Positions 42,601 through 59,524 of a stretch of 64,000 nucleotides of DNA are shown here, in pieces. A program made the position numbers and the translations under genes. The stretch is from Kitasatospora phosalacinea. Its GTDB lineage: Bacteria; Actinomycetota; Actinomycetes; Streptomycetales; Streptomycetaceae. The stretch spans positions 1 to 64,000 of the forward strand of contig NZ_JNYE01000006.1 of NCBI RefSeq assembly GCF_000717185.1. Reading direction: 5' to 3'. Each line of letters opens with the position of its first letter. Position 1 is the first letter of the stretch. Under the pieces are notes generated by a model. It was not told where the DNA came from. It saw only the letters and a list, made by a program, of their open reading frames with translations, and did no database searches.

Positions 42601-44980
42601 CGGGGCGGTTCGCCGATGGCTGACTCTTCTCGCGGTTGCCCAGCAGTGTGACCCACATGCCCCGCACCGTTTGCTTCCGCTGTTGGACGGCCCTGGATTC
42701 TTCCGTGCGTGGCTGAGGTTTGCCGTTGCCGTCGTTGGGCTGGGCCGGGAAGTAGACGAAGCGACGCTCACGCCGCAGGACGCGTCCGCTGCAGTCCGTG
42801 TTGCGCTCGATCACCTCGCCCAGTCAGCTCAACCGTTTACGGGGAAGCCCCGTGCTTGCGACCTCTGGGGCATCCATGCCGACGTGCATGGAGTGGTTCA
42901 CGACGCCGTCGCACTACTCATCGATGCTGACCTCGAACCCGCGCTCGCCTCGCTCACCAGGATCAGCGATGGCACCACTACCTCACTGGCGGGCATGGGA
43001 GGGTCCGGTCCGCTTGTCACCACTGATCTGCTTGCGATACTCAGCCGTGCTGTTGACCACACCCGTGCCACCGTCGTCCACCAGCTCATGGGTCAACTGC
43101 GCGACGAGCACGAGAGCCGGCGCACTCTCTACCCAGAGAGCGCGGATTTCGAGCTGGCGATGGCCCGGGTCAGCCTCATTGCCGGGGACGCTGCAGAAGC
43201 TCGTGAATGCTGGGAACGGGCTGCCCACTACATGGCCGCATATGGTAGCCACAAGGACATCACCATCCACGAACTGCTCGGCCCGCTGCCTAACCTCGTG
43301 GCACTCGATCCTACTGAGGCGCGGACCAGGCTCGCGGAAGCCCAGCCGCTGACCTATCTCGTAGCCCATCACACAGACGGGCGCAGCACTTCCAGCACCC
43401 CACATGACTGGTGGCGACTCCTCGCTGACATCGACCCCTATGCCGCCGCGACCCTGGCTGCAGAGGTGCTGCTCACCGAGCCTGGACTCCCGGATGCACT
43501 CGCCGAGGCCGCGCACCATCGGCTCCTCGACAGTCAAGCCACCACAGCTGATCCCGTCATCCTGGCGGCGTTGAGGGTCACAGCCGGGTCCGGAGAACGT
43601 GATCTTGATCGAGATACTGCGCTGCTCGGCCGACTCGCCGAGTTGCCATCGGACGATCAGGCACGCGTTGCTGGCCTTCTGTCTATCCTTGCGAACGCGA
43701 TCACGGCCACGTACGACGATCAGTTCCTCACCTATGCCTCGGAGGAGGCTGGCTCTGATTCGGCTGGCGCGCTCCGCCAGGCCGCACACCTTCTCGCCGG
43801 TGACGGTGCACCCCCTCTTGCCGCCAGGCCTGGCAACGATGGACGGCCAAGGCGTGATAGGCGCACCTTGGACACTGCTGATCTCTTGGATTCCTTGCAA
43901 CGCCCGATGCTGCCGCCAGGGGCTGCAGGCGCGATTGCCGCCGTCCGTGACTACGGTGATAAGTCGCACAAGGCCGATGAGGCTGCGCCCAGATGGTCAA
44001 TCGATGCGCTGATTGATGCGGTTGGATGGCGGCTCATGGAGGTTGCTGCCGAGAGCGGCGCCGATTCGGCTGCCCAACTACTGCAGCGTGTCGCTGACGA
44101 ACCGGACCTCTTCAGTAGTGGCGAGCTCCTGACGGGCCTCGCAGACGGGCTTGAGTTGCGTTGTGGCGGAGAACCTGGAGTTCCTGAGCGCTTGGCCGCA
44201 ATTGCGCTCACTCTCGCCTTCGCCAAGATTCGAGGCGGCGGGGGCTACCTCAACTTCGCCGGACGCGACCGGCTGGACCTCTGGCAGCGCGCCCACGCTC
44301 TGGATGCGGTTGCCGCGGCTGATTGTCTTGCCGACCAGGTCGCCGAAACCGTCGCTGGCACACGGTACGGCACGATAGGCGTCACTCAGGCCGTCGTAGC
44401 TGCGTTCGCCGCCCAGCCCCCGAGGACATCACCGCCTTCTGCTGACAGTGTGCTCGTTCCGAACGATCACGCGTTCGTCTGCTGGGATGAGGCGTTCTCT
44501 GTCATCGCGCACCGGCTTCCGGGCAAAATCGATCTCGGAGCTGGCGTATACCAGCCGCCGCAGAAACCGACCGAGCAGCACGACATCGACGCAGCTCTGA
44601 GCCGTCTCAGCCTCGCTACGTTTGCCACACCTGAGCGCCCAGACCGACGCCGCGGACTACTGGCTGCTAGCGTGTTGCTGACCGCCCGTCCGACTGCGGC
44701 ACAGGCCGCCATCGCTCGCGTCCTTGCTGCCGACATCGGTGCTGGCCCGCTCGGCTGGCTGCTTACTGTGTTGCACGATGGCCTGCCAGAGAGCGAGCTA
44801 GACACTGACCTCGTCGGTCAGGTTACGGCCCTCGCGCGCAGCACCATGCTTTCCGTCCGAGCGGAGGCCGCCCGTGTTCTAGCTGCTGCGGGCTGCCCAG
44901 TGCCCGATCCGCCCGCGACGCCCGCGCACCCGTTCCTGATTCACGCCCTCGCCGCCGACGGGGATGAGAAGAGGCCATGA
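39695..44980 (+). CDS. Large STAND/NACHT-type ATPase with N-terminal DUF4297/Cap4-like nuclease domain
   Basis: The product has 1761 residues. Residues 9-65 (GYAYQD..., FDDV, QIKH at 60-63) match the PD-(D/E)xK-like dsDNA nuclease domain of the DUF4297/Cap4 type, with Asp46, Gln60 and Lys62 as likely active-site residues. A P-loop follows (GGPGSGKS, 295-302) with Walker B ALIVDGLDHIS (388-398), a STAND-type Asp-rich box. From about residue 620 to the end come helical repeats of a sensor. This architecture is that of Avs-like antiphage proteins, which detect a phage protein, oligomerise and cut DNA. TTG at 39695 is the start: GAGGGGGAG lies five bases before it. GC content is lower than in the flanks. 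It is coupled to the next gene by ATGA. Confidence 0.82.
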   Translation: MGLRPTHLGYAYQDLLTAIRLVDVVLGRATSVIVDTKLFDDDRFDDVTCEWRTGTRERLQIKHTDRDRELEAKSFTNDRRGLRLDLLVTAVDQDVRRHPDTSYRVVLRDTEPHDPTLAAVLKPMDASIDPGPAVPGLGSTRFRFDASALRAENPWQSMVADIDDDVLGRVCEVLVVDVGLPGCSLDIRDPGPAERVLLRRLADELGAGRPPNRHRTPEDVALALIEAAKAARGLDGRVTAPSLIPRLDLAVDFGAVREGHPVDPAVAVARLQVLTTLASAVEEAAEQGATVVVTGGPGSGKSWLCEQLADRLREEWIVARHHCWLGAADTHRDRRVLSDVVIGSLLRQLEAMAPASLAEIRPRYAATRETLAAAVCGIRRDIPDRPIALIVDGLDHISRVRGRNVGAAFHGSVDPAHLLIEELSHLELPPGAVLLLASQPGDHLAAADSHGVVAVTVPPLSRPETYDLARRFGVLAAVDSPAANSRVDDRARAAVDLIQSRSRGNALYATYLCRQALGPDPSLHEAAERRDTALDPLDRLRDVPESAHDLDEYYAYLLAGLTPEQRQAVSLLAVCDFAVTADELQEIFPLIAPTLTAALAAVAPIVAQQPGIGGLKIHHESFSRFARREAGSERWLTLVRTAAAEWLAKRGFFTDTRAFRHLPELLADLDRHDDLVALVGPDFLCRAIAGLQPPAAIAHTLAFIARRSAASGDWPVLVRCVELRRAFDTYENENLSGSLVAHADVLIALLGADVVAASLLYDGGPTVSARWGLQLCAAVDQAGAAAPWEAYLAAWEDSRSSDNVHYGADSDNDVFLAELRGQLRLPRRRDRGREQGAADEDISATAERVAVFLDQDDLPELPRVLDVLLDCLGPSSVLASVPLIERPATRAAVLLRLADVAASAGQGLPSPRTLAVAAWASFDAEDPRRFLRHGISITEIADDILGADIGGCLRAATEEALRYSTPGWSGAVRRWLTLLAVAQQCDPHAPHRLLPLLDGPGFFRAWLRFAVAVVGLGREVDEATLTPQDASAAVRVALDHLAQSAQPFTGKPRACDLWGIHADVHGVVHDAVALLIDADLEPALASLTRISDGTTTSLAGMGGSGPLVTTDLLAILSRAVDHTRATVVHQLMGQLRDEHESRRTLYPESADFELAMARVSLIAGDAAEARECWERAAHYMAAYGSHKDITIHELLGPLPNLVALDPTEARTRLAEAQPLTYLVAHHTDGRSTSSTPHDWWRLLADIDPYAAATLAAEVLLTEPGLPDALAEAAHHRLLDSQATTADPVILAALRVTAGSGERDLDRDTALLGRLAELPSDDQARVAGLLSILANAITATYDDQFLTYASEEAGSDSAGALRQAAHLLAGDGAPPLAARPGNDGRPRRDRRTLDTADLLDSLQRPMLPPGAAGAIAAVRDYGDKSHKADEAAPRWSIDALIDAVGWRLMEVAAESGADSAAQLLQRVADEPDLFSSGELLTGLADGLELRCGGEPGVPERLAAIALTLAFAKIRGGGGYLNFAGRDRLDLWQRAHALDAVAAADCLADQVAETVAGTRYGTIGVTQAVVAAFAAQPPRTSPPSADSVLVPNDHAFVCWDEAFSVIAHRLPGKIDLGAGVYQPPQKPTEQHDIDAALSRLSLATFATPERPDRRRGLLAASVLLTARPTAAQAAIARVLAADIGAGPLGWLLTVLHDGLPESELDTDLVGQVTALARSTMLSVRAEAARVLAAAGCPVPDPPATPAHPFLIHALAADGDEKRP

Positions 44981-46146
44981 GCTCAGACAATCGCGCGTTC
45001 GCTGTAGCGATCGTTGATGAGTACCTCGAGTCACGGCTAGACCAGATCGACGAGATACCCGGACTGCGCGAGGCGGTGATCGACCTCGTGGCCGCCGCGT
45101 TCTCAGGTGATTCGGAACAGCTCATGCGCGATCAACTCAGGCTCTTGAACAGGCCCGGGAGCAGAGACTTCCCCGATGCGTACCTGGCAGACGAGGCAGC
45201 GACAGAAGACGCACTCCAGCATGCTGCCGCCGGCCTGCGTGTGGCTCTTGCGCAGACCGGAAGACTAGTCGAAGCACGTCGCTTCGAACGCATGATCGAC
45301 AATCGGCTGCGCGACGACCCTCGACTCGCCGTTCGCGCTGAACGTGCCCGGGTGCCTAGGCCACTGACTCGTCCGGTTCCGCTTGCGTGGTCGATCGAGC
45401 CCGCGCCGTGGTTCAAGGACAGCGGCGGGGAGGAAGGGTCCTGGCCCCCGCGCGGTGCTGAGGAGGTGGAGGTGCTGAGGTGTCTGCCGGGTGGGATATC
45501 GGCTCTGGCTCAAGTTGACGGTGGCCCTTACGCGGGGTGGACGCAGATCGGGATGATTGAGCGGCACCGAACGCCCGCACGACGCTATCCGCGGCAGCCC
45601 GCTCGCCAAGTCCTGGTTGCAGTAGGGCTGGAGGCAACTTCGGGCGACCCGCCGCCCCGGTCGTTTCCGTTCACGCGAGCTCCGTGGCAGGTGTGGACTG
45701 CGCCATGGCAGCAGTTGGACCCGATGGCAGACCCCGCCGAGGTTGTGGAGTACGTTTCAACCGGGAACTGGCCGGTGGCTGCGCTCACCGACGGCGGCCA
45801 TACCGATCCAGATCACCCGCGTACCGGCCTTGGGGCTCCGCCGTATGTGCTCGCGCCAACCCTGGCGGCGGTCGCGGTACTTGGACTTGAGCCGACAAGC
45901 GGCATTTGCGGCTTCAGCCTCAGCGACAAGGACGGACCGGCGATCGTCGGCCGCCAGTGGCACGGACATCTCGTCCACGATGGCAACTATCAGCCGCTGA
46001 AGCCGGCTGTCGAAGGCGCCGATCTCTTGATCCGCCCCGACCTGTTCGGCCGACTGCGTGACGCTATCGGTGTTACGCGCATCCGCACTGGCATCTCGGT
46101 TAGCTATCGGAGCGGGGGCGATGCCGTCGCGGATGAAGACGATTGA
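44977..46146 (+). CDS. Unrecognised 389-residue partner of the STAND nuclease
   Basis: I recognise no domain. The N-terminal 110 residues are helical (EYLESRLDQIDEIPGLREAV) and rich in charged residues. The middle (PPRGAEEVEVLRCLPGGISALAQVDG) and the C-terminal half (GICGFSLSDKDGPAIVGRQWHG) look like mixed alpha/beta sequence with many Trp. No membrane segment or signal is evident. The ATG overlaps the stop of the STAND gene by ATGA, and GAGAAGAGG lies upstream, so the two are made together. It may be an accessory, inhibitor or second effector. Confidence 0.75.
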   Translation: MSSDNRAFAVAIVDEYLESRLDQIDEIPGLREAVIDLVAAAFSGDSEQLMRDQLRLLNRPGSRDFPDAYLADEAATEDALQHAAAGLRVALAQTGRLVEARRFERMIDNRLRDDPRLAVRAERARVPRPLTRPVPLAWSIEPAPWFKDSGGEEGSWPPRGAEEVEVLRCLPGGISALAQVDGGPYAGWTQIGMIERHRTPARRYPRQPARQVLVAVGLEATSGDPPPRSFPFTRAPWQVWTAPWQQLDPMADPAEVVEYVSTGNWPVAALTDGGHTDPDHPRTGLGAPPYVLAPTLAAVAVLGLEPTSGICGFSLSDKDGPAIVGRQWHGHLVHDGNYQPLKPAVEGADLLIRPDLFGRLRDAIGVTRIRTGISVSYRSGGDAVADEDD

Positions 46147-46224
46147 CGGGTCGGCTCTCCTGGATCGACACCCTGCTGGCGGTCGGCACGCCGGAGGAGC
46201 GATGCTGAGTGCTGCCCCGTGGAC

Positions 46225-46377
46225 CTACGAGCGGGTCGCCCCGTGCTCCAGGTAGACGGTCTCGGACTGCGTCCTGGCGGTGTAGGCGGCGTGGACGCGG
46301 TCGTCCTCGTCGATGAAGAGCACCCCGGCGGCGGTGCGGGGCTGGGCTACGACCTCGTGGGGCTGGGAGTCGCTCAT
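46225..46377 (-). pseudogene. Truncated Nudix-hydrolase-like N-terminus
   Basis: Fifty codons from ATG 46377 read MSDSQPHEVV, then RTAAGVLFIDEDDRV, which resembles the first strand of actinomycete Nudix hydrolases. The similarity stops there, and the Nudix box is missing; the last 20 codons are unrelated. It lies outside the terminator of the neighbouring operon and looks like a remnant left by recombination at the junction of the two cargo blocks. Confidence 0.45.
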
Positions 46378-46440
46378 GGTGACGACTGTAGCCAGCGGAC
46401 CGAGGTGGTCGCCGTGTGCCGACGGTTTCTCGGCGGGCAT

Positions 46441-46486
46441 GGCTGGGTGGGCTCGTCGAGAAACCCCTCGACGAGCCCACCCAGCC
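46441..46486 (-). terminator. Terminator of the minus-strand nucleotide-modification operon
   Basis: A perfect 20-bp stem (GGCTGGGTGGGCTCGTCGAG and complement) with loop AAACCC lies just after the Nudix gene stop on the minus strand, closing the operon that begins at 53939. Confidence 0.85.
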
Positions 46487-46492
46487 GTGTCG

Positions 46493-46969
46493 TCACGCCG
46501 CTGTCGGCACCCAGCCGTAGCGCGAGAATGCGGGACCGCCGGCGCGGTAGGCGGTGAGCGCCTGGGCGGCCGTGGGGAAGGCCGGTTCGGGGAGGTGGCC
46601 GGCGGGAACCCAGCGGGCGGCGAGGTGTTTGTCGGGTTCGGTGTTGGTGAGTTCGCCGGTCCACTTGTCGGTGGCGAAGACGAAGAGGACGAACTGACCG
46701 GCCTGGTCCCAGCCCTGTTCGACGTGGATGACGTGGACGAGTTCGAGGTCCGCCGGGTCGACGAGCAGGCCGGTCTCCTCCTTGAGTTCGCGGGCGGCGG
46801 CCTCGTCGAGGGCTTCGCCCGGCTCGGCCTTGCCGCCGGGGACGGTCCAGGCGGGGTGTGGGGACCAGTTGCGGGCGGCGTAGTGCACGGCGGCGATCGT
46901 GTCGGTGCTCTTGTCGTGGACGATCACGCAGACCGAGTTCCGGCTGTTCATCACGCTGTTGTGCGTCAC
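46493..46969 (-). CDS. Nudix hydrolase
   Basis: The 158-residue protein has a full Nudix box, GGKAEPGE, then a seven-residue spacer, then RELKEETGLL, and the conserved preceding TVPGG. Nudix enzymes hydrolyse nucleoside diphosphates linked to another group, e.g. modified (d)NTPs or NDP-sugars. The GTG at 46969 overlaps the stop of the phosphotransferase gene (GTGA), which sets the start; a longer reading frame upstream is not supported. It is the last gene of the operon and may trim or sanitise a modified nucleotide. Confidence 0.9.
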   Translation of the reverse strand: MTHNSVMNSRNSVCVIVHDKSTDTIAAVHYAARNWSPHPAWTVPGGKAEPGEALDEAAARELKEETGLLVDPADLELVHVIHVEQGWDQAGQFVLFVFATDKWTGELTNTEPDKHLAARWVPAGHLPEPAFPTAAQALTAYRAGGPAFSRYGWVPTAA

Positions 46970-47745
46970 GGTGCGGACTCCTTGTCGAGGTGCCGGAGGA
47001 CGTCGGTGGTCCAGGACGGCCTGGTGGTGTGCCAGCTGAACTGGTAACCGTTGGTGCCGAGGTAGGGCGTGGTGAGGATGTGGTGGAACTCGCACCATGC
47101 GGCGAACTCGCGCCAGGAGCATCCGGGCAGGCCGCGTCGGCGGGGGTGGTGGTTGTAGGTGTCCACGGCCTGGCGGATGGTGTCCTCGGGCAGCGGGCCG
47201 GTGGTCATGGCGGTGCTGACGACAAGCTTGGCGAGGTCGTAGCCGAATGGCGCGAGGGTGAGGGAGTCGAAGTCGATGACGGCCACATCGGCGTCGGCGA
47301 TGAGGAAGTTGCGCGGGTTGGCGTCCTTGTAGAAGGCGGCCGGCATGGTTGCGGCCTGCTTCAGCCAGTCGTCGGCGGCCTCGGGCGTCAGGGCCGGCTT
47401 CGGCACGGTGCCGGAGGCCAGGAGTCGGTGGAGGCGTTCGCGGCGGCCGTCGGCGAAGCCAGTGATGGTGATGGTGTCGTGGGTGTGCGGCGTGTCGAGG
47501 CGGGCTGCGTGCAGCTCGCGGGTGTGAGCGGCGGTGTGCTGGTGTCCGAGGAGGTTGGCCAGGGCCACCAGGTCGTCGGGACCGCCGTGTCGTCCTTCGA
47601 GGTGTTCGAAGTCGATCTCAGTGGGGCGGACTTGGACGATCCGGGGGATGAGCACGTCGGGGTTGGCACGGGCGATCCACCGGTAGTGGGCCAGGGATTG
47701 CTGCTGGGCCTGGGCGCTCATGTACGTCTTGGTGAAGGTTTTCAT
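46966..47745 (-). CDS. Phosphotransferase, APH superfamily
   Basis: The 259-residue kinase-fold protein has the catalytic loop FYKDANPRNFLI (Asp and Asn of the APH motif; the usual His is a Lys/Tyr position) and VIDFDSLTLAPFGYDLAK as metal-binding DFD. It is coupled at both ends (ATGA to the methyltransferase gene, GTGA to the Nudix gene). It may phosphorylate an intermediate or the finished product, as self-resistance or as a biosynthetic step. Confidence 0.85.
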   Translation of the reverse strand: MKTFTKTYMSAQAQQQSLAHYRWIARANPDVLIPRIVQVRPTEIDFEHLEGRHGGPDDLVALANLLGHQHTAAHTRELHAARLDTPHTHDTITITGFADGRRERLHRLLASGTVPKPALTPEAADDWLKQAATMPAAFYKDANPRNFLIADADVAVIDFDSLTLAPFGYDLAKLVVSTAMTTGPLPEDTIRQAVDTYNHHPRRRGLPGCSWREFAAWCEFHHILTTPYLGTNGYQFSWHTTRPSWTTDVLRHLDKESAP

Positions 47746-48542
47746 CGGCGGGCGGCCACGACGTAGGTGACGGTAGAGGTGGTCTCCAGCGGGCCGTCGC
47801 CGACGGTCTCCCGAAGTCGCCGGGCGATCTCCTCGACGCCACCACCGAGTTGGTACTTCGGGTTGGTGGCTGCGTACTCCGCGATGTGGTCGGCGTTGGT
47901 GAAGCGGAAGCGGTGTTCGTGGTGGACGACCTGCTGCACGTCGAGGCAGGCGGCGACGATGTCGGCCTGGTTGTGGCTGTGGAAGGTCTCGTACAGGCTC
48001 GGCCGGCTGGTGGCCTCGGGGTCGAGGCCGCTGGCGGCGATCACCTCGTCCAGCGTGCGGTAGCTGTCGGGCGACTTGGTGACCGTGATCGACAGTCCGC
48101 CGGGCGCCAGGCAGCGGGCGATCTCGGCGATCACTGTCGCTGGCCGGGGTGAGTGGTAGAGACAGAACGCGGCCACCGCGACGGCCACGGAGGCGTTGGG
48201 CAGGTCGATGGCGTGGAAGTCGCCGCGCAGGAACTCCACGCCCAGGCGGCCGGTGAGCCGGCTCCGGGTCTCGGCGAGGAGGGCGGTGGACTGGTCGAAG
48301 GCGATGAGCCTCGGCGGGTCGAGCCGCTCGGCCAGGGCGAGCGTGGTCGTGCCGCGTCCGCAGCCGATGTCGAGGACGGTGCCGCGCAGCCCGGTGGCGG
48401 CGAGGTCGGCGATGACGGTGGCGGGGTGGGGACCGGCGGTCTTGGCGCGGGACAGCGCGCCGGTGCGCTGGGCGATGCGGCCCGCGTCGGCGTACAGGTC
48501 GTGGCGGACGCGGTCGGTGTCGAGGAACGGGTTGGCGGTCAT
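47742..48542 (-). CDS. Class I SAM-dependent methyltransferase
   Basis: The 266-residue protein has SAM-binding motif I VLDIGCGRGTTTLALAERL, acidic motif II LIAFDQS, and the FCLYHSPRP/ CLAPGGLSITVTKS motifs typical of small-molecule methyltransferases. Its stop overlaps the phosphotransferase start (ATGA). The target is unknown; an O- or N-methyl group on the sugar or base is plausible from context. Confidence 0.9.
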   Translation of the reverse strand: MTANPFLDTDRVRHDLYADAGRIAQRTGALSRAKTAGPHPATVIADLAATGLRGTVLDIGCGRGTTTLALAERLDPPRLIAFDQSTALLAETRSRLTGRLGVEFLRGDFHAIDLPNASVAVAVAAFCLYHSPRPATVIAEIARCLAPGGLSITVTKSPDSYRTLDEVIAASGLDPEATSRPSLYETFHSHNQADIVAACLDVQQVVHHEHRFRFTNADHIAEYAATNPKYQLGGGVEEIARRLRETVGDGPLETTSTVTYVVAARR

Positions 48543-48579
48543 GGACAGGTGGAGCCTTCCCGGTGCGAAGTGGGTCAGA

Positions 48580-49089
48580 TCATGTCTGTGGAGGGACGGC
48601 GGCGACGAAGTGGCGGGCGGCCCGGCGGCTGGTGAGGGTGACGACGCGGGCGTGGCCGGCGTGCTCGGCGATCAGTGCGCGGACCTTGGGCCGCATCTGG
48701 CGCCGGTAGCCGAGGATGTAGCGGATGAAGCCCCAGGTGATGCGGTCGAAGACGCCCTGGGAGGTGTGTTGGCCGCCGCGGTAGCGCCGGCGCCGCTGCA
48801 GGATGCCGAGCAGGCAGATGACCGGGGGGATGTCGAGGAAGATCACGGTGTCGGCCCGCTTGAGGCGGATCGGGAGGGTGGAGGCGTAGTTCCCGTCGAT
48901 CACCCAGCGGGGCCGGGCGACGAGCTCCTCCTGGAGAGCAGCGAACTTCTCCTGCGGCAGCGGGTTCCAGTCGGCGTCGTAGTAGACGCCGTCGAGGTGG
49001 GTCAGAGGGGCATCGATCAGTTCGGCGAGCTGGCGTCCGACGACGGTCTTGCCGCTGCCGCCGCAGCCCATGATGGCGATCCTGTCCAT
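48580..49089 (-). CDS. P-loop nucleotide kinase (adenylate-kinase/FlaR-like)
   Basis: The 169-residue protein has a P-loop in [19 protein letters not shown], the FlaR-type [13 protein letters not shown] segment, an [11 protein letters not shown] strand and a basic lid (QRRRRYRGG). It matches the small kinases annotated as topology-modulation proteins but really of the adenylate-kinase type. Here it may phosphorylate a modified nucleotide. It begins five bases after the stop of the 25-codon ORF. Confidence 0.85.
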
Positions 49090-49093
49090 GCCG

Positions 49094-49171
49094 CTACAGG
49101 CTACCGAGCCGTGCGACGGGCCGGACCTCGACTTGGTCGGGCCACTCGGGCGAGATCTCCAGCGTGGTCAT
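49094..49171 (-). CDS. 25-residue ORF, translationally coupled
   Basis: A 25-codon reading frame, [14 protein letters not shown] and so on to VARLGSL, starts with an ATG overlapping the stop of the glycosyltransferase-like gene (ATGA) and ends five bases before the kinase ATG. No signal or domain is visible. It could be a genuine small peptide or a coupling spacer that keeps ribosomes on the mRNA. It is too short for the sequence alone to decide. Confidence 0.4.
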
Positions 49172-50223
49172 GCGCGGTCTCCTTCGAGCAGCAGGGGCGG
49201 GATGGCTGTGCCGGTCAGCGCGGCGGTGAGGGTGCGGAGCTGGCGGCTGAGGCGGAACGGGTCGAGCCGGTCGATGCAACGGGCGATCAGGTCGGCGTGG
49301 GCCTGGCTGCCCGCGATCCGGGCGAGCGCGGTGACGGTGGCCACGACGTCGGCCGCGCTCGTGACGACCAGCTCGCGCGGGACGACCGTCTCGGCGGCCC
49401 GCAGGGCGCGCGGGGCCAGCGGCAGGCAGCCGGTGAGGACGGCCTCGAAGAGTCGCTGGGTGAACTGGCCGGTCCTTGCGTACCGGTCCGGGGCGAGGAG
49501 CACGGTGGCCACCGCGGAGCGGTAGGCGGAGGTGACCTCGTCGAAGGGGATACGGCCGGTGAAGTTCACCTCCGGCCAGCGGGCGGTGTTGTTCCACTTC
49601 CCGGCCACCCGGTGCGGCAGCTGGGCGGCGGCCGGGGCGAAGAACTCCTCGAAGGCCATGTCACGGTCGTACTGGTTGCCGATGTAGATCAGGGGCAGTT
49701 CCCGCTTCTCGGCCGCGAGGGCGGCCGGGTAGGCCCGGTCGAGGGCGTCGTCGGCGACCGGGAAGAGCAGGCTGGCCGCTCCCGGCGACGGGTACAGGGC
49801 CGGCTCGCACACCTGCAGGTGCCGAACAGTCCGCAATGGGTCGTCGGTGGGCAACTGCTGGTCCTTGTCCCACAGCACCGTGCGGACGGCGAGCCGGTGG
49901 GTGTAGTGGTCGAGGAGTTCCTGCTGCCGGTGCAGGTCGCAGGTGTGCCCCTCGGCGTCGCAGGCGGTGGTGTTGCGGCCGGGGATCGGCCAGCGCCACT
50001 CCAGGAACAGGGCGTCGATCTCGGGCAGGCCGCCGTCCCATCGGTAGGTGGCGGTGAGATCGGTGCCGGCCTCGGCGAGATCGCGGTTGGCCTGGAGGAA
50101 GACGATCTCGTGGCCGGCGGCGATCAGGCCGTCCACCAGGGTGCGGCGGTGGCTTCGCCCGCCGTCGGGGGTGTCGGTGATCCCGGAGCCGAGGAAGCCC
50201 CAGTGGCTGTAGCCGATCCTCAT
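49168..50223 (-). CDS. Putative glycosyltransferase (GT-B-like)
   Basis: The 351-residue protein starts MRIGYSHWGF and has an N-terminal Rossmann-like half (DGLIAAGHEIVFLQANRD), and a C-terminal half with the donor-site-like RLFEAVLTGCLPLAPRALRAAETV pattern of GT-B glycosyltransferases. The ATG at 50223 overlaps the carbamoyltransferase stop (ATGA). It probably moves a sugar from the nucleotide made by the epimerase onto the modified intermediate. The family is not certain. Confidence 0.7.
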   Translation of the reverse strand: MRIGYSHWGFLGSGITDTPDGGRSHRRTLVDGLIAAGHEIVFLQANRDLAEAGTDLTATYRWDGGLPEIDALFLEWRWPIPGRNTTACDAEGHTCDLHRQQELLDHYTHRLAVRTVLWDKDQQLPTDDPLRTVRHLQVCEPALYPSPGAASLLFPVADDALDRAYPAALAAEKRELPLIYIGNQYDRDMAFEEFFAPAAAQLPHRVAGKWNNTARWPEVNFTGRIPFDEVTSAYRSAVATVLLAPDRYARTGQFTQRLFEAVLTGCLPLAPRALRAAETVVPRELVVTSAADVVATVTALARIAGSQAHADLIARCIDRLDPFRLSRQLRTLTAALTGTAIPPLLLEGDRA

Positions 50224-51938
50224 GCCTTGGTCACCCACCAGTCCTCGATGAGGAGCGCGTCCAGCCCGGACTCGGCCAGGCAGTCCAGCGCCATCTCCGG
50301 GGTGCCGCAGATCGGCTTGCCCTTCACGTTCAGGGAGGTGTTGATCAGGACCGGCACGTCGGTGATCTCGGCGAAGGCGGTCAGGACGTCGGCCAGGAGC
50401 GGGTTGTCCCTGGGCGAGAGAGTCTGCACCCGGGCAGTGCCGTTGGCGTGGACGATGGCCGGGATCGCCTGGCGGGCCAGGTCGGTGACCGGGGAGGCCA
50501 TGGACATGAACGGGGCCTCTTGGCCGAGGGTGAAGTAGTCCGCCGCCTTGTCGGCCAGGACCACGGGGGCGAACGGCCGGAACGGCTCGCGGAACTTCAC
50601 CGTGGCGTTGAGCCGGTCGGCGACGCCGGGCCGCAGCGGCGAGGCGAGGATCGAACGGTGCCCGAGAGCACGCGGGCCTGCCTCCAGCTCACCCTGGAAC
50701 AGGCCGATGATCGTGCCCTTGGCCAGCTCGCGGGCCGCGAAGCCGACCGGGTCGTCCAGGCGCCGGGCGGTCATCCCCGGCCGTGGTTCGGCCGGCAGCT
50801 CCAGGCCGGGGAAGGACGGGCCGAGGTAGCAGGCCCGCGCCAGCCCGGTCGGGAGGTCCCCGTGCCGGTCGAGGTGGACCGCAGCGGCGGCGCCGATCGC
50901 GGTGCCGGAGTCACCGGGCGCGGGCGGCACGGCGACCTCGTCGAACAGCCCGGAGGCGATGATCTTCCCGATGCTGACGCAGTTCATCGCCACCCCGCCG
51001 CCCACGCACAGCAGCCGGGCACTCGTGCGTTCGCGGGCGATCCGCGCCAGGTGCAGCATCACCTGCTCGGTGCGTTCCTGGAGAGCGGCGGCGAGGTCGG
51101 CGTGTACCGGGACGACTTCCTCCTTCGGTCGGCGGGGCGGGCAGGTGAGTGCGGTGAAGGCTGCGGTCAGCCGCGGGTAGCGGCGGTCCATGACCCGCAG
51201 GCCGATCAGGCGGTGATCGAGAGCGAAGCCGTCGGTGGTGAGCCGGACGGCCTTGGCGAACAGCGAGCGGAACCGCTTCGGGTCGCCGAGGGCGGCCAGC
51301 GCCATGACGGTGCCCTCCTCGTCCCCGCGCCGCCAGCCGAGATGCTCGGTGACGGCGCCATACAGGTAGCCGAGGGAAGTGGGGTCGTCGAGGGTGTGGA
51401 CGATCCGGTACGAGCAGCCGGCCGCGCTCTGCCGCGCGTGGCCGATGGTGGTGGTCTGGGTCTCGCCGAGGCTGTCCACCACCAGGACGGCGGCCTCCTC
51501 GTAGCCGGAGGCGGCGAAGGCGTACAGCCCGTGGGCGCGGTGGTGCAGGACGGGCTGCACCTCGGCGTTCGGGAAGATGTCGGCCAGGCGGGCAAGGCGC
51601 CGGCGGGTGTTGCCGGCGACCTGGGCGAACGAGCGGACCCGGGGCAGAGCCCGGGCGGCCGTCGCCGGTCGCAGGGTGTGAACGAGGGCGGAGGGGATCG
51701 CCCGGAGGTAGTGCTGCGGGGTGAAGTTGTACGCGACGGTGCCGATGTCGGCGAAGGTCAGGCCCGCTTCGTCGAGGAGCCACTCCACGGCCATGGCCGG
51801 GTAGCTCTTGTCGTGCTTGATGGCGCTGAGCCTCTCCTCCTCGACGAAGCCGACGAGTCGGCCGTCGACGAGCAGGGCGGCGGCTGAGTCGTGGGTGTAG
51901 GAGCACAGGCCCAGCACGATGTTGCGGTTCGCGGCCAC
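50220..51938 (-). CDS. O-carbamoyltransferase (TobZ/NodU/CmcH family)
   Basis: The 572-residue protein has the family architecture: an N-terminal Kae1-like ATPase domain with HDSAAALLVDG and GFVEEERLSAIKHDK, the metal site region (HHRAHGLYAF), LLCVGGGVAMNC, and a YrdC-like C-terminal half with GPRALGHRSILASP and KFREPFRPFAPVV. These enzymes make carbamoyl-AMP from carbamoyl phosphate and pass the carbamoyl group to a hydroxyl. The GTG at 51938 has GAGGTGA upstream, five bases after the previous stop. Next to a hydroxymethylase-like enzyme it could carbamoylate a hydroxymethyl group. Confidence 0.92.
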   Translation of the reverse strand: MAANRNIVLGLCSYTHDSAAALLVDGRLVGFVEEERLSAIKHDKSYPAMAVEWLLDEAGLTFADIGTVAYNFTPQHYLRAIPSALVHTLRPATAARALPRVRSFAQVAGNTRRRLARLADIFPNAEVQPVLHHRAHGLYAFAASGYEEAAVLVVDSLGETQTTTIGHARQSAAGCSYRIVHTLDDPTSLGYLYGAVTEHLGWRRGDEEGTVMALAALGDPKRFRSLFAKAVRLTTDGFALDHRLIGLRVMDRRYPRLTAAFTALTCPPRRPKEEVVPVHADLAAALQERTEQVMLHLARIARERTSARLLCVGGGVAMNCVSIGKIIASGLFDEVAVPPAPGDSGTAIGAAAAVHLDRHGDLPTGLARACYLGPSFPGLELPAEPRPGMTARRLDDPVGFAARELAKGTIIGLFQGELEAGPRALGHRSILASPLRPGVADRLNATVKFREPFRPFAPVVLADKAADYFTLGQEAPFMSMASPVTDLARQAIPAIVHANGTARVQTLSPRDNPLLADVLTAFAEITDVPVLINTSLNVKGKPICGTPEMALDCLAESGLDALLIEDWWVTKA

Positions 51939-51943
51939 GTCGG

Positions 51944-52912
51944 TCACCTCTTCGCCGGGATCGCCGGGATGGGCATCTTGGCGAGCGGGATCTTCTGCTC
52001 GCGCTGGTCGTACCAGAGCGCCAGGGTCTCGGGCAGCGGCCCGGTCGCCTCGGCAGCCCTGGCACGGGCCTCGTCGCGGTGACCGGCCTTCCACAGCCGG
52101 TAGCTGGCCAGGACAGCGGCGAAGCCGTCCCAGACCGGGTGGCCGACGGCCTCGCCCACGATGACCTGCTTCAACACCAGGTCGAAGTCCTCCCAGGGGA
52201 TGCCGAGCGGCTGCCACGCGGGCGAGGCGGGCGCGTCGGCGGCGAGGCTCCAGGCCGTGTCCTGGTGCTGGGCGTACAGGTGCAGGGAGTCGACGTGGTG
52301 GTGGTAGTCGCCGACCTCGGCGCCGAGCCATCCGGCCATCAGCTCGTGCAGGACGGTGGTGGTGATCAGGTCGTACGGCAGGCCGAGCCACACGTCCTGG
52401 CTCCGCATGCTGGTGTGCATCTCCAGGCGGCCCTCGCGCAGGTAGAAGCGGTACCCGAGGGTGCAGGGAACGTCCTTGTGGCCGGCGGTGTCGCGGCCAG
52501 GGTCGAAGATCTGGACGACGGCGCGGCGGCTCTCGCCGTCCCGGGTCAGCTGGCGGCGTACATAGTCGAGTTGGTCAAGCTGACCGTGCCAGCGTCGCAG
52601 GCGCGGACCGTAGGCGCCCTGGAGGGCGCCGTGGTCGGTGAGGCCGGCCAGACGGCTGTTGAAGTCGTGGATCCAGTCGGCGCTGGAGCCGGAGAGGATC
52701 CACACGGTCTCGGCGGCGGCGAACGCGGGGTTCAGCACCCGGTACGGGTCGAGGTGGACCATCCGGGCGGCCGGGTTGGTCAGCTTGAGGTAGGCACCCA
52801 TGAGCTCGGCGGTGGCCATGCCGCGCGGTGCGACGCTGCGGCCCTGGCTCAGGATGGCCTTGCCGGCACGGGTGAACAGCGCGTTCGCGCTGTCCGCGGT
52901 GGTGACGAACAC
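51944..52912 (-). CDS. Thymidylate-synthase-like enzyme, predicted cytosine-nucleotide hydroxymethylase
   Basis: The 322-residue protein (GTG at 52912, GGAGGA upstream) has the ThyA C-terminal core: catalytic Cys150 in DVPCTLGYRF, the phosphate-binding MRSQDVWLGLPYD (169-181), and HHHVDSLHLYAQH (205-215). Position 181, Asn in thymidylate synthases (GLPxN), is Asp here. In T4 dCMP hydroxymethylase and in CMP hydroxymethylase MilA that Asp recognises cytosine. The protein is therefore predicted to transfer a one-carbon unit from methylene-THF to C5 of a cytosine nucleotide. It lies between an epimerase and a carbamoyltransferase. Confidence 0.85.
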   Translation of the reverse strand: MFVTTADSANALFTRAGKAILSQGRSVAPRGMATAELMGAYLKLTNPAARMVHLDPYRVLNPAFAAAETVWILSGSSADWIHDFNSRLAGLTDHGALQGAYGPRLRRWHGQLDQLDYVRRQLTRDGESRRAVVQIFDPGRDTAGHKDVPCTLGYRFYLREGRLEMHTSMRSQDVWLGLPYDLITTTVLHELMAGWLGAEVGDYHHHVDSLHLYAQHQDTAWSLAADAPASPAWQPLGIPWEDFDLVLKQVIVGEAVGHPVWDGFAAVLASYRLWKAGHRDEARARAAEATGPLPETLALWYDQREQKIPLAKMPIPAIPAKR

Positions 52913-52946
52913 GATTCCTCCGGTGGGAACGACGGGGCAGGATCGT

Positions 52947-53939
52947 TCAGGCGCCCACGGGCTGCGGGGAGTTGGCGTTGAGGTGGGCGAGCTGGCGCGA
53001 GACGCCCTGGGCGAGGGCGGTGCGGGGCTTCCAGCCCAGGAGGTCCGCCGCCCGGGAGTTGTCGGCGAGGGTGGCCTCGACGTCACCGGCCTGGGCGGGC
53101 AGCCGGTTGACCGATACGGGGCGGCCGGTCAGCTCCTCGACGGCGGCCAGCACGTTCAGCACGGTGGTGGTGACGCCGGTACCGATGTTGAGGACCGTCG
53201 TGCCGATCGGGGCGGTCGCGGCGGCGATGGCGGCTCGGACCACGTCGCCGACATAGGTGAAGTCCCGGCGCTGGCTGCCCTCGCCATAGAGGTTCAGGGC
53301 GGGTCCGCCGAGCGCCGCCGTGAGTGCGCGGCCGATCAGCATGTCATCGCGCTGGCGAGGGCCGTAGACCGTGAACAGGCGAAGTGCCACCGCGGTGACG
53401 GTGGAGGTGGCCTTGCCCGCATGGGCCAGGCAGAGCTGTTCGCCGGCGAGCTTGCTGATCGCGTACGGCGACTCGGGGTTCGGCACGATCTCCTCGCCGG
53501 TCGCGCCGCCGCTCGTGGTCCCGTAGACGCTGGAGGAGGACGCGTAGACCAGCCGGGGAACGCGGACGTCCTCGCAGGCGGCCAGCACGCGCTCGGTGGC
53601 GAAGACGTTGCAAGCGGTGTACTCGGCAAACCGATCGCCCCAGGAGCTGCGGACGCCCGGCAGTGCCGCGAGGTGGAAAACCGCGTCGGCCTGCAGGAAC
53701 AGTGCCGTGAGCGGGCAGGTCCTCAAGTCGGCGGCGACGAAGGTGAAGCCGGGGTGGTCGAGGGCTCCTGCCAAGTTCGCCGCCGCACCGGGGTCGGTGC
53801 GAGGGTCGCGGCGGTCCACGCCGATGACGGCGGCACCCTCGCCAAGGAGAGCGTCGACCAGGTGCGAGCCGATGAAGCCTGCGGCTCCGGTGACGACCGC
53901 CCGGGACGGGGCGCGTCCTGGTGTTGCCTTGTGCTGCAT
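52947..53939 (-). CDS. NAD-dependent epimerase/dehydratase (extended SDR)
   Basis: The 330-residue protein has the NAD-binding VVTGAAGFIGSHLV, VYASSSSVYGTT and the catalytic YAISK, plus RRDFTYVGDVV, typical of UDP/GDP-sugar epimerases and dehydratases. It opens the minus-strand operon and probably supplies the sugar nucleotide for the glycosyltransferase-like protein. Purine-rich GGGGGGACTTCA precedes the ATG. Confidence 0.88.
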   Translation of the reverse strand: MQHKATPGRAPSRAVVTGAAGFIGSHLVDALLGEGAAVIGVDRRDPRTDPGAAANLAGALDHPGFTFVAADLRTCPLTALFLQADAVFHLAALPGVRSSWGDRFAEYTACNVFATERVLAACEDVRVPRLVYASSSSVYGTTSGGATGEEIVPNPESPYAISKLAGEQLCLAHAGKATSTVTAVALRLFTVYGPRQRDDMLIGRALTAALGGPALNLYGEGSQRRDFTYVGDVVRAAIAAATAPIGTTVLNIGTGVTTTVLNVLAAVEELTGRPVSVNRLPAQAGDVEATLADNSRAADLLGWKPRTALAQGVSRQLAHLNANSPQPVGA

Positions 53940-53993
53940 TGAAGTCCCCCCAGGGGTCTTGTCGTTGCTGTCTGGATCGACGGCGCCGGACGG

Positions 53994-54206
53994 TCAGGAC
54001 GTGTGCGGCGTGCGCGGGTGGGTGCCGTCGAGCGCCGTGGTGTGGCTGAGGGCCGATGTGGCGAGATGGTGCTGGACGGCCGTCCCGAGCAGGGCGAGGC
54101 ACAGGACATGGCCGAGGGCCCACAGGCCAGTGAGAACCGAGCCGATCGGGTCACGGGCCGCACTGCGGCGTCGTCGGCCCCGCGTTCCGCCCAAGATGTG
54201 GATCAT
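53994..54206 (-). CDS. Small membrane protein, 70 residues
   Basis: From ATG 54206 (preceded by GAGGAGAAGG) the frame encodes a basic N-terminus, [14 protein letters not shown], followed by one hydrophobic segment (VLTGLWALGHVLCLALLG) and a short polar tail. It lies 54 bp before the epimerase start on the same strand and may be the first gene of the operon. No homologue is recognised. Confidence 0.5.
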   Translation of the reverse strand: MIHILGGTRGRRRRSAARDPIGSVLTGLWALGHVLCLALLGTAVQHHLATSALSHTTALDGTHPRTPHTS

Positions 54207-54392
54207 CACCTTCTCCTCGAAGTTCCGTGCGCGGACCCGAAGAGCCACGGCGGTCGAGTGCGAACGACATGAGATGCGCGCAGATCAAGGCGCGCTGCCC
54301 AACGGTCGGCCGGTGGCGAGGCTCGTTGCCTTGGCGGCCGGGCGTGTCGAAACCATCACGCACCGCAACCCCGGCCGGGAAGGGCTGGTGAT

Positions 54393-54427
54393 GGTCAGTC
54401 AGGTCAGGTGTTGGTCAGAATGGTCAG
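54393..54427. promoter_or_regulatory. Array of four GGTCAG repeats between divergent genes
   Basis: GGTCAG occurs four times, starting at 54393, 54402, 54413 and 54422, i.e. with spacings of 9, 11 and 9 bp, so copies 1 and 3 and copies 2 and 4 are each 20 bp (two helical turns) apart. The array lies upstream of the regulator gene (54513) and opposite the biosynthetic operon, a natural place for a binding site of that regulator. Confidence 0.55.
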
Positions 54428-54512
54428 ATTCACCCAATGACGGAGGGCGGCTCCGAGGGCTGCTGTACGTTGGCGTCGAACCTGTCAGCCGCATCGGACT
54501 TCGAGGTCACCT

Positions 54513-55844
54513 GTGGACGAAGGGTCTGTTCTCGGCGACTGCCTCAAGCGACTCGGCTGGTCGCCCGACAAACTGGCACGCGAGATCAACCGCGTGCGCC
54601 CGAACAGCATCAGCCCGAAAGCGCCCTACGGCTGGCTCAAGGGCTCCACGCCGCGCGGCTCGCTTCCGCAGATCGTCGCGTCGATCCTCTCGCACCATCT
54701 GAGGGAGACGATCACCGCCGAGGCCCTGTGGCCGGCGAAAGCCACCGCGCCCGGTGCCGACGGCTGGCTACAGCAGCCGTGGTCGCAGGGCGGTACCTGG
54801 GAGGGGCTCGGAGCGTTCACGGCGGGCCCCCTCCGTCCCGGCCTCGGTGTGTCGCCGCCCTTGTCCGGTCAGGGACTCATCGGCCCGGCCGTTGACTGGC
54901 TGACGACACCGGACGAGCCGGTAGCAGGGCGGCCCAGCGGGGAGGCGATCAGCCCCCAGGCCATCGACGTTCTCGCCGATCGCGTCGCCCAGCTCCGCCG
55001 ACTCGATGACGCGCAGGGCGGCCCGCTCGTGCTGGACTGGATCACCCAAGACCTGAACTGGGCCGCACACTTGGCCCGCAACGGCACCTACGATCCCGCC
55101 ATAGGGCAACGACTCCACAGCGTGCTCGCCGAACTCGCGCAGCTGGCCGGCTGGCTCGCCTGCGACCTCGGTCGCAACGCCCTCGGCCAGCGCTACCTAC
55201 TCTTCGGACTCCGCGCCGCGCACACGGCCAACAACCGCGCGCTTGGGGCGAACATCGTCTCCTGCCTCAGCTACCAAGCCACTTGGCGCAGTGCGCACGA
55301 CGAGGCGCTTCGCTTGATCAAGATCGCCCGTCAGGGCGTCGGAGGCGCACCCGGCGGCGCGGTCCACGCCCTCCTCGCCACCAGGCAGGCCCGTGCCCAT
55401 GCCCAACTGGGCCACCTGGACGACTGCGCTCGGACCCTCGACGAGGCGGCTGCCCTGGTCGAGTCCGCAGCAGACAGCAGCACACCCTCGTGGGCCTACT
55501 GGGTGACACCGGCTGTCCTGGCCGCCGACGCCGGCCGCGCATGGCTCGAGCTCGGCCGTCCCGAGGTCGCCGAACGCCATCTGTTGCGTGGCCTGCAGCT
55601 GTTCGGTGACGAGCAGCCCCGGAACCGGCTGCTGCACACGATGTCCCTGGCAGAAGCCCGGCTGCGGCGGCACGACCTCGACGGCGCTGCCGAGGCCACC
55701 CGCCAGGCCCTCGATCTCCGCTCGTACCTCGACTCCGGCCGCGCCAGACAGCGGCTGGCCGGCCTACGCGACGAGTTCGAGCACTCCGACAGCCCACTGG
55801 CGCACGACGTCACAGACGAGATCGGCGCCGTCTTGGCCGCGTAG
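54513..55844 (+). CDS. Transcriptional regulator with N-terminal HTH and TPR-like repeats
   Basis: The 443-residue protein begins VDEGSVLGDCLKRLGWS with an XRE-like region (KLAREINRVRP...WLKGSTPRGS), and the C-terminal 300 residues are helical repeats resembling TPRs (LLATRQARAHAQLGHLDDCARTLDEAAAL, RHLLRGLQLFG). Proteins of this layout in Streptomyces regulate development or clusters. The GTG start lies 86 bp after the GGTCAG array. It is followed by the murB-like gene on the same strand. Confidence 0.8.
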   Translation: MDEGSVLGDCLKRLGWSPDKLAREINRVRPNSISPKAPYGWLKGSTPRGSLPQIVASILSHHLRETITAEALWPAKATAPGADGWLQQPWSQGGTWEGLGAFTAGPLRPGLGVSPPLSGQGLIGPAVDWLTTPDEPVAGRPSGEAISPQAIDVLADRVAQLRRLDDAQGGPLVLDWITQDLNWAAHLARNGTYDPAIGQRLHSVLAELAQLAGWLACDLGRNALGQRYLLFGLRAAHTANNRALGANIVSCLSYQATWRSAHDEALRLIKIARQGVGGAPGGAVHALLATRQARAHAQLGHLDDCARTLDEAAALVESAADSSTPSWAYWVTPAVLAADAGRAWLELGRPEVAERHLLRGLQLFGDEQPRNRLLHTMSLAEARLRRHDLDGAAEATRQALDLRSYLDSGRARQRLAGLRDEFEHSDSPLAHDVTDEIGAVLAA

Positions 55845-55875
55845 CCTGGACTTCCGCACGCACCCGAGGAACCGA

Positions 55876-56961
55876 ATGTACGTCCGCACACAGGTCCCGC
55901 TGGCTCCGCTCACCACGCTCGGCATCGGCGGCAACGCCGTAGTCCTCGCCGAGCTGACCGATCCCGCCGACTTCCCCGACGTCGTTGGCCTGGCCCGTCG
56001 GGAGGGCGCCCGGCCCTTGGTCCTCGGAGGCGGCAGCAACATCCTCGTGGCCGACGCCGGGTGCGGCGTGCCCGTCGTACGCATGGCCACCCAGGGCGTG
56101 GCGTTCGAGCGCGATGACGACAGCGAGGCGGTCACCGTCACCGTCCAGGCCGGCCACATGCTCCAGGACCTCGTCGAGGAGACCATCTCCAACGGCCTGA
56201 CCGGCATGGAGACGCTGATCGGCATCCCCGGCACGGTGGGAGCCACGCCGGTCCAGAACGTCGGCGCCTACGGGCAGGAAGTCGCGGACGTCCTCATGCG
56301 CGTCACGGCCTGGGACTGGGTCACCGGCCGCGAAGTCACTCTCTCGGCCGAGGACTGCCGGCTTGGCCACCGCACGAGCATCTTCAAGCACTCCACCCGC
56401 TGGACGCTCCTCACGGTGACGTTCCGGCTGCGGCCGTCCGAGCTGAGCAGCCCGATCACGTACGGGATGGTCGCCAGGGTCCTCGACGTCCCCAAGGGCA
56501 CGCCGGTCCTCCTTGCCGACGCGGCTGCCGCCGTGCTGACCGTGCGCCGCAGCAAGGGCATGGTCCTCGACCCCGGAGACAGCGACAACCGCAACGTCGG
56601 CAGCGTCTTCCTCAGCCCTGTCGTCGACGAGAAGCAGGCCGAGAAGCTCCGGGCCGAACAGGCGCCCGTGAACGCCTTCCCCGACGGCCTGACCAGAGTC
56701 AGTGCCAGCTGGCTGATCAAGGCCGCCGGGTTCGCTCTCGGCCAGCCGATCGCCCCTGGCATCCGGATGTCGACCAAGCACTTCACGCTCGTCGCCGAGG
56801 GCCACGCCACCGCCGGCGCGTTCGCCGAGGCATCCAGGACGGTCGCCGAGAGCGTGCAGGAGGTCACGGGAATCCAGCTGACCCCCGAGCCCGACCTCTT
56901 CGGCGACGAACCCGCGTACCTCCGCCTCAAGCAGAACGCGCTCGCTTCAGCAACACACTGA
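55876..56961 (+). CDS. MurB-like UDP-N-acetylmuramate dehydrogenase homologue
   Basis: The 361-residue FAD enzyme has the MurB FAD-binding segments VLGGGSNILVAD and GIPGTVGATPVQNVGAYGQEV, the catalytic Ser in RNVGSVFLSP and the final Glu in LTPEPDLFGD. It has GAGGA six bases before the ATG and follows the regulator by 31 bp. A streptomycete normally has its own murB in the cell-wall gene set, so this cluster-borne copy may be a resistant duplicate or may have been recruited to reduce a sugar nucleotide. Confidence 0.88.
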   Translation: MYVRTQVPLAPLTTLGIGGNAVVLAELTDPADFPDVVGLARREGARPLVLGGGSNILVADAGCGVPVVRMATQGVAFERDDDSEAVTVTVQAGHMLQDLVEETISNGLTGMETLIGIPGTVGATPVQNVGAYGQEVADVLMRVTAWDWVTGREVTLSAEDCRLGHRTSIFKHSTRWTLLTVTFRLRPSELSSPITYGMVARVLDVPKGTPVLLADAAAAVLTVRRSKGMVLDPGDSDNRNVGSVFLSPVVDEKQAEKLRAEQAPVNAFPDGLTRVSASWLIKAAGFALGQPIAPGIRMSTKHFTLVAEGHATAGAFAEASRTVAESVQEVTGIQLTPEPDLFGDEPAYLRLKQNALASATH

Positions 56962-58762: not shown

Positions 58763-59524
58763 CTATCGCCCCACGAGTTCGCCAGCGGTGGTGTCGACCT
58801 GGGAGACAGCTCGCCGGATGAGGCCCAGGGTCGCGTCGAGTTCGGCGGGGCGGAGGAAGCCGTTGGCGTTGAGGGCGAAGGCGATCTGGTTCAGGTTGTT
58901 GCCGACCCGGGCCAGTTGAGCGCGGCTGGCGGCCAGTTCGTCGACAGTGCGGTCGAGGCGGTCTTGCGGGTCGCCGGCACTCAGGCCTCGGGCGTCGTTG
59001 AGGGTGCTGGTGGCGCAGAAGCGGGCGATGGTCTGGCTGCGGTCAGCGGCGGCTCGGCGGATCTCTTCGAATTCGGCGGCGTTGTATCGGACGGTCACTC
59101 GGTGCGGGCGCTGCTGCGGGTCACGGTGGCGGCGACGCGGCTGGCGAGTGGGGTGGCTCGGGGCGATGTTCTCAAGGCGGTCGCTCTCTTCCCCTACCTC
59201 GCTCGGCACCCCCTGGTGCCGAGCTGCCGGTGACGAGTCGAGCGCCCCCGCTCGACTCGCCGCCGGCTGTCCCTCGCCGGCTGGCGAGGGACCTGCGTGG
59301 GACTGCCCCTGGGGCGGTCCCACGCAATAGCTTGCTGCGCCAGCGGCGGTCAGCTCGGACGCCAGTTGCGGATCACCGTTGGGAGTAGGCGAGTTGAGGA
59401 GCGTTTCCAGGTCGCCGTCGGGGCTGTCGGTGTGCCCGGGGTCGGGCTGGTGGAGCGTCAGAGGGGACTCCTGGGGGTGTGTGGGGACGGTGGGCGGGAC
59501 CGGACCAGGCCTGGTCTGGATCAC
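58763..59524 (-). CDS. MobC-like mobilisation/relaxosome protein
   Basis: The 253-residue protein has a disordered N-terminal half and a C-terminal MobC part: RVTVRYNAAEFEEIRRAAADRS, a ribbon-helix-helix-like segment, and ARVGNNLNQIAFALNANG, the MobC hallmark. MobC helps a relaxase open oriT. The relaxase it would need is not in the window. The start is uncertain and may be about 20 codons further in. Confidence 0.82.
   Translation of the reverse strand: MIQTRPGPVPPTVPTHPQESPLTLHQPDPGHTDSPDGDLETLLNSPTPNGDPQLASELTAAGAASYCVGPPQGQSHAGPSPAGEGQPAASRAGALDSSPAARHQGVPSEVGEESDRLENIAPSHPTRQPRRRHRDPQQRPHRVTVRYNAAEFEEIRRAAADRSQTIARFCATSTLNDARGLSAGDPQDRLDRTVDELAASRAQLARVGNNLNQIAFALNANGFLRPAELDATLGLIRRAVSQVDTTAGELVGR

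Follow-up and report, generated by a model that had tools for sequence, protein, structure and literature searches.

The operon and its described counterparts

T4 beta-glucosyltransferase, which accompanies the hydroxymethylase gp42 in phage T4, acts on 5-hydroxymethylcytosine, while the antibiotic O-carbamoyltransferases of the novobiocin, GdmN and TobZ type act on a sugar or a macrolide and, to our knowledge, have no hydroxymethylase partner. MilA, the cytidine monophosphate (CMP) 5-hydroxymethylase of mildiomycin biosynthesis (PDB 5b6d, 5jnh), owns an alanine (Ala176) and a lysine (Lys133) that accompany its preference for CMP, and the double exchange A176S/K133R reverses that preference, according to the available part of its description (PMC5175136). 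The MetaGPA carbamoyltransferase, encoded beside a thymidylate synthase homologue in a phage metagenome, converts 5-hydroxymethyldeoxycytidine (5hmdC) to its 5-carbamoyloxymethyl form (5cmdC) and also acts on the triphosphates 5hmdCTP and 5hmCTP and on RNA, the last at lower yield, in the accessible portion of that report (PMC8670742). These are the closest described counterparts of a gene cluster carried by an integrative element of Kitasatospora phosalacinea, on a stretch of 64,000 nucleotides (contig NZ_JNYE01000006.1, positions 1-64,000; hereafter the window, whose coordinates are contig coordinates). Literature searches listed no description of the operon, and an earlier sequence-only reading of the same DNA did not recognise the combination as a described cluster.

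On balance, sequence comparisons and a structure model favour a biosynthetic operon, carried by an integrative element, whose product is a small molecule, a decorated 5-hydroxymethyl-(deoxy)cytidine. The thymidylate synthase (ThyA)-fold enzyme would add a hydroxymethyl group to C5 of cytidylate, with deoxycytidine monophosphate (dCMP) a likelier substrate than CMP from its active-site letters; a GT-B glycosyltransferase, judging from its fold and its near-constant pairing with the ThyA-like enzyme, would put a sugar on the new hydroxymethyl group, the epimerase supplying the nucleoside diphosphate sugar. The carbamoyltransferase would then add a carbamoyl ester, for which the sugar is a likelier site than the base, although the order of the steps is provisional; adjustment of phosphates and methylation may fall to the P-loop kinase, the APH-family phosphotransferase, the Nudix hydrolase and the methyltransferase. 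The pathway would end in a 5-hydroxymethyl-(deoxy)cytidine nucleotide or nucleoside with these decorations, and an NsdA-family regulator perhaps controls it; such a small molecule is favoured over a DNA mark, which is less likely.

Nine co-directional open reading frames (ORFs) run from 53939 down to 46493 on the minus strand, and two divergent genes lie at 54513-56961 on the plus strand, with families assigned by Pfam and NCBIfam scans:

54513-55844, plus strand: NsdA-family regulator (NF053720, 292.8 bits, cut-off 75)
55876-56961, plus strand: second murB, a MurB homologue (NF010478, 327 bits, cut-off 231)
52947-53939, minus strand: SDR-type NAD-dependent sugar-nucleotide epimerase/dehydratase (PF01370, 1e-52; under the cut-off of all NCBIfam rows listed, GalE being the best)
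51944-52912, minus strand: predicted ThyA-fold pyrimidine 5-hydroxymethylase (best PDB match MilA, 1.7e-32; phrog_5131, 4.4e-53; residues and tree)
50220-51947, minus strand: O-carbamoyltransferase of the NodU/TobZ superfamily (PF02543 and PF16861, N and C domains; PDB decarbamoylnovobiocin carbamoyltransferase 1.4e-83, TobZ 6e-65)
49168-50223, minus strand: GT-B glycosyltransferase with a predicted fold like T4 beta-glucosyltransferase (weak Glyco_trans_1_2 family match; structure model)
49094-49171, minus strand: 25-codon ORF, the deletion scar of a radical S-adenosylmethionine (SAM) gene (DNA alignment to the L034 and L031 stretches, which have the intact gene)
48580-49089, minus strand: small P-loop kinase, FlaR/topology-modulation-like (NF005994, 3.8e-44, under the cut-off; no Pfam match)
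47742-48542, minus strand: class I SAM methyltransferase (PF13649, 8.6e-19)
46966-47745, minus strand: APH-family phosphotransferase (PF01636, 1.1e-9)
46493-46951, minus strand: Nudix hydrolase 1 (PF00293, 3.4e-23)
approximately 46440-46490, no strand assigned: stem-loop of 21 pairs 3' of Nudix hydrolase 1 (sequence and fold)
46225-46440, minus strand: 71-codon ORF, the deletion scar of a second Nudix gene (longer homologues in L033, L034 and L031/L035)

The gene positions and order of the sequence-only reading were borne out, every gene that it named being present with an open frame and a family match, as was its divergent pair of a regulator and a MurB homologue; the 25-codon ORF that it had counted as a gene is instead a scar. 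Of its claim of stop/start overlaps ending at a terminator, four overlaps stand (ThyA-like/carbamoyltransferase at 51944-51947, carbamoyltransferase/glycosyltransferase at 50220-50223, glycosyltransferase/25-codon ORF at 49168-49171, and methyltransferase/APH at 47742-47745), and so does a strong stem, of 21 pairs where 20 had been reported (71 nt folded, dG -56.4 kcal/mol, z -8.2). The stem-loop may plausibly act as a terminator, but it lacks a run of T residues and did not appear among the results of the terminator scan.

Predicted nucleotide preference of the ThyA-like enzyme

The ThyA-like protein of the window shares with MilA the ThyA fold, the catalytic cysteine and the cytosine-type aspartate. 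At thymidylate synthase (TS) positions 177, 167, 126 and 147 it has Asp, Ser, Arg and Thr, the aspartate, already noticed in the sequence-only reading, lying within GLPYD. Cytosine is the likely substrate base, because this aspartate occupies the base-recognition site. At the sugar site the enzyme differs from MilA in having Ser/Arg instead of Ala/Lys; thus, by the rule given in the available part of PMC5175136, it should favour dCMP over CMP, a sharp prediction from diagnostic residues. This pair fits a deoxynucleotide better than the ribonucleotide CMP of MilA-type pathways.

These residues were followed through an alignment and tree of 60 ThyA rows, in which the MilA row is a fragment. All 29 rows from carbamoyltransferase-bearing clusters have Cys146, Asp177, Arg126 and Thr147, and they carry Ser (14 rows), Gly (14 rows) or Ala (1 row) at position 167; the serine rows comprise four close relatives including the window, three clusters of the sulfotransferase type (L083, L084, L095), six class-wide rows and L100. 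Ala with Lys occurs in MilA, in a Streptomyces microflavus row and in eight MilA-like rows (L037-L039, L043-L047), and Gly with Lys in L131 and L132. Ser, Arg and Asp together are found in T4 gp42 and in four phage rows (AXL3, PW916, G and ctIq), and two other phage rows (Goe26 and Mont) have Asn at TS 177. The 29 rows form a clade (support 100/98) separate from the MilA clade (100/99); the tree carried warnings of long branches and was therefore used solely for separating these two bacterial clades. A separate ThyX in genome G000 was counted in favour of a decorated cytidine product.

A pathway that, like those of mildiomycin or bacimethrin, begins with CMP and leads to a ribonucleoside antibiotic would agree with MilA being the best solved relative of the ThyA-like protein, and the radical-SAM enzyme of two relatives has cytosylglucuronate decarboxylase as its second-best PDB match (2.8e-8, after SkfB at 1.7e-11). 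The Ser/Arg pair and the separate clade argue against such a pathway, as does the lack, among the ten cluster proteins scanned, of a nucleosidase of the MilB/BcmB type (PF05014) such as the mildiomycin and bacimethrin clusters have; the only PF05014 match in the strain's own genome is marginal (28.9 bits, cut-off 28.8) and lies on contig C2. We consider a ribonucleoside pathway very unlikely. A S. microflavus plasmid locus (L106), read here as bacimethrin-like, shares a ThyA-like enzyme and a methyltransferase with the window but differs in its nucleoside 2-deoxyribosyltransferase gene and its Ala/Lys enzyme, and neither a glycosyltransferase nor a carbamoyltransferase is annotated within 9 kb, in an annotation table that is incomplete. 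As precedent for a deoxynucleoside antibiotic, the Photorhabdus 4'-thiothymidine cluster is a radical-SAM cluster with a kinase homologue, and the words carbamoyl and Nudix are absent from the available text of its description (PMC12691670).

Predicted glycosylation and carbamoylation, and a conserved gene partnership

The model of the glycosyltransferase had T4 beta-glucosyltransferase as its top PDB match in two comparisons, by a small margin over other GT-B enzymes, and an hhalign comparison aimed at sequence kinship between the two proteins gave a probability of 9 with E 0.0037. With the T4 pair the window thus shares its predicted activities, its glycosyltransferase model's best fold match and Asp177/Ser167/Arg126; gp42, however, is a very long branch, and the window has no recognised DNA replication gene and adds a carbamoyltransferase and sugar-tailoring genes. 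The carbamoyltransferase shows long homology to the antibiotic enzymes, its nearest solved relatives being the novobiocin enzyme, GdmN, 7xb6 and TobZ, and the HDS and HHRAH motifs are invariant across its family.

The glycosyltransferase has matches in 35 of 394 sampled genomes of the host's family at E <=1e-3 (32 of them <1e-50), so the trait is not rare; at 1e-20 it matches 11 of 394 class genomes, of which the family list already contained three. A ThyA-like protein of >90% identity occurs in 4 of 70 genomes of the genus, the window included. Bacterial glycosyltransferase loci were tabulated from 28 of the 32 family genomes (G171, G318, G377 and G409 were left out) and 8 new class genomes, as stretches of up to 20 kb. 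Among these 36 loci, a ThyA-like gene is present in 35, a carbamoyltransferase, a kinase and an epimerase in 31 each, an APH gene in 30, a methyltransferase in 28 and a radical-SAM gene in 3 (L034, L035, L128). Each of the 31 carbamoyltransferase-bearing loci also has a ThyA-like gene, and the sole locus without one (L136) has merely half a glycosyltransferase. The sequence-only reading, which had set the two genes side by side and named a failure of the cluster genes to be conserved together as a ground for rejection, thus survives on both points. Two predicted proteins (P0154 and P0168) are fusions of glycosyltransferase and kinase. Clusters of a large type carry as accessories an HAD phosphatase, a second APH, SAHH-like, Nudix and KdsB-like cytidylyltransferase genes, a weakly surface-polysaccharide-like protein and a histidine-phosphatase-like protein (by eye), and a smaller type carries a sulfotransferase, genes here being called with a simple GC-frame script.

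Five stretches hold the glycosyltransferase with a ThyA-like gene and no carbamoyltransferase: L045, L047, L131 and L132, whose MilA-like enzymes are 33-36% identical to the ThyA-like protein of the window, and L148, a viral contig with consecutive kinase, glycosyltransferase, ThyA-like and polymerase genes. Such stretches suggest that the glycosyltransferase acts on the hydroxymethyl group first and that the carbamoyl group is therefore more likely to reside on the sugar. The sequence-only reading had instead proposed 5-hydroxymethylation followed by O-carbamoylation of the same group, giving a 5-carbamoyloxymethylcytosine nucleotide or nucleoside, in which case the glycosyltransferase would act elsewhere. 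The co-occurrence in 31 of 36 loci is compatible with this, and the MetaGPA enzyme is a precedent for the conversion of 5hmdC to 5cmdC that likewise lies beside a ThyA-like enzyme (PMC8670742, available part). Against this, the window protein is 26-31% identical to the phage matches listed (40 of 139 phage records), two short patterns run against viral_contigs led to no confirmed relative, and its closest solved relatives are the antibiotic enzymes. Direct carbamoylation is accordingly judged unlikely as a whole. The hydroxymethylation step retains the support of the cytosine-type aspartate and the gene adjacency, and the attached sugar is at least as likely a carbamoyl site as the base, given an antibiotic-type carbamoyltransferase and the pairing of glycosyltransferase with ThyA-like enzyme.

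DNA modification would take a different course: hydroxymethyl-dCMP would be phosphorylated, built into element or host DNA and there glycosylated and carbamoylated, as in T4-like phages. Consistent with this are the dCMP-type active-site letters common to T4 gp42 and AXL3, the predicted glycosyltransferase fold, the viral contig L148 and the mobile context. Nevertheless, a Pfam scan of ten cluster proteins found no polymerase or restriction family, PADLOC gave just generic-looking matches, to the methyltransferase and Nudix proteins, and the accessory genes of relatives (KdsB-like, SAHH-like, HAD, sulfotransferase) fit small-molecule chemistry, making DNA modification quite improbable next to the decorated small molecule.

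Other ThyA-containing rows were observed in passing. In L047 (G042) and L147 (IMG/VR), genes for MilA-like, NDK-like, photoproduct-lyase-like radical-SAM, exonuclease-like, aldo/keto reductase and glycosyltransferase proteins are consecutive and adjoin apparent phage structural genes (row and structural genes named by eye). Plasmids pGeo12a of Geobacillus (L104) and pSaLI10 of S. salivarius (L105) have operons of ThyA-like, QueA-like, PqqD, AAA, phosphotransferase, CYTH and ABC genes, possibly another nucleotide pathway.

Partial decay on a mobile element

An intact radical-SAM gene (about 280 codons, PF04055) lies between the glycosyltransferase and kinase genes of G083 (L034) and FH025 (L031). 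The 25-codon ORF retains its start codon region, 20 nt of its interior and the stretch from its stop to the kinase, with two gaps of 711 and 139 nt against L034, and G021 has an identical scar; the 71-codon ORF is, against L033, a second Nudix gene with an internal deletion of 321 nt. The window has thus lost a radical-SAM gene that two relatives keep and a second Nudix gene that three keep. A radical-SAM gene occupies the same slot in L128, from another family, and is therefore an old optional part; two further radical-SAM matches (L133 and L134, 40%) have no other cluster gene beside them.

These deletions could mean that the locus is decaying and yields no active product in this strain. The core ORFs are intact, however, and in comparison with G021, which shares the radical-SAM loss, the eight genes spanning epimerase to Nudix show ratios of non-synonymous to synonymous substitution (dN/dS, Nei-Gojobori, own script) of 0.16-0.39; 28 of the 31 carbamoyltransferase-bearing loci show no radical-SAM gene, so that the core can apparently dispense with it. 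Against G083 or FH025 the ratio reaches 0.50 (APH, G083). An inactive remnant is highly unlikely; the dN/dS of 0.16-0.39 and the recurrence elsewhere confirm, at the level of sequence, that the block is more than chance, and the window copy appears to belong to a broader family and to have decayed in part. Signs of loss were also seen at other loci: a second, degraded locus in G068/FH025 (L036, 12535-14415) joins a 45-residue ThyA-like piece to a gapped carbamoyltransferase, a large-type cluster in G147 (L101) has genes that match in pieces only and has probably decayed independently, and a protein of Thermobifida halotolerans (P0020) fuses a radical-SAM start to a methyltransferase end with the intervening kinase gone, a likely deletion product.

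The cluster is cargo of a tyrosine-recombinase element, about 27.6 kb long, that sits at the 3' end of a gene recognised by eye as yajQ-like; the sequence-only reading had already called it a cargo cluster. The features of the element are:

39330-39348, no strand assigned: left attachment (att) repeat, a 19-bp direct repeat whose partner, at contig 66949-66967 past the window end, lies within the 3' end of the yajQ-like gene
58763-59524, minus strand: NikA/MobC-like mobilisation protein (PF21983, PF05713)
63216-64535, plus strand: tyrosine recombinase (PF00589, 3.1e-20 on L137:217-1536), running past the window end at 64000

The two repeats bound the element, with the recombinase and mobilisation protein inside. 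In G021, of the same genus, the repeat is found on both sides of the element (one copy exact, one with 1 mismatch) and both flanks match those of the window, so the element occupies one site in both genomes. G083 has one copy of the repeat at <=2 mismatches, and FH025 one with 1 mismatch, close to a contig end. The left part of the element (39468-46218), with a NACHT-type NTPase and one more ORF, is unmatched in the G021 stretch, whereas the cluster does match. The NACHT/STAND NTPase and a 389-aa ORF (39338-46146) are variable cargo by the left att site, where G021 has other genes. In three of four closely related elements, the second murB has the NsdA-family regulator as its neighbour; another murB (recognised by eye) lies about 17 kb away at contig 73656-74696, and the second is possibly a target duplication.

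A wider proposal, which we put forward tentatively and with considerable doubt, is that actinobacterial chromosomes and mobile elements hold a cellular counterpart of the phage module for hydroxymethylcytosine, in which a dCMP hydroxymethylase, a glycosyltransferase like that of T4 and a nucleotide kinase are joined by a carbamoyltransferase and sugar tailoring, the product being a glycosylated, carbamoylated 5-hydroxymethyldeoxycytidine that either acts as an antibiotic deoxynucleotide or marks bacterial or element DNA. The DNA mark, if true, would be the more striking result. If the proposal holds, chemistry known from the disguise of phage DNA would also serve cells, and the combination of this glycosyltransferase with a ThyA-like hydroxymethylase would offer a means of searching for a whole family of modified-cytosine products.

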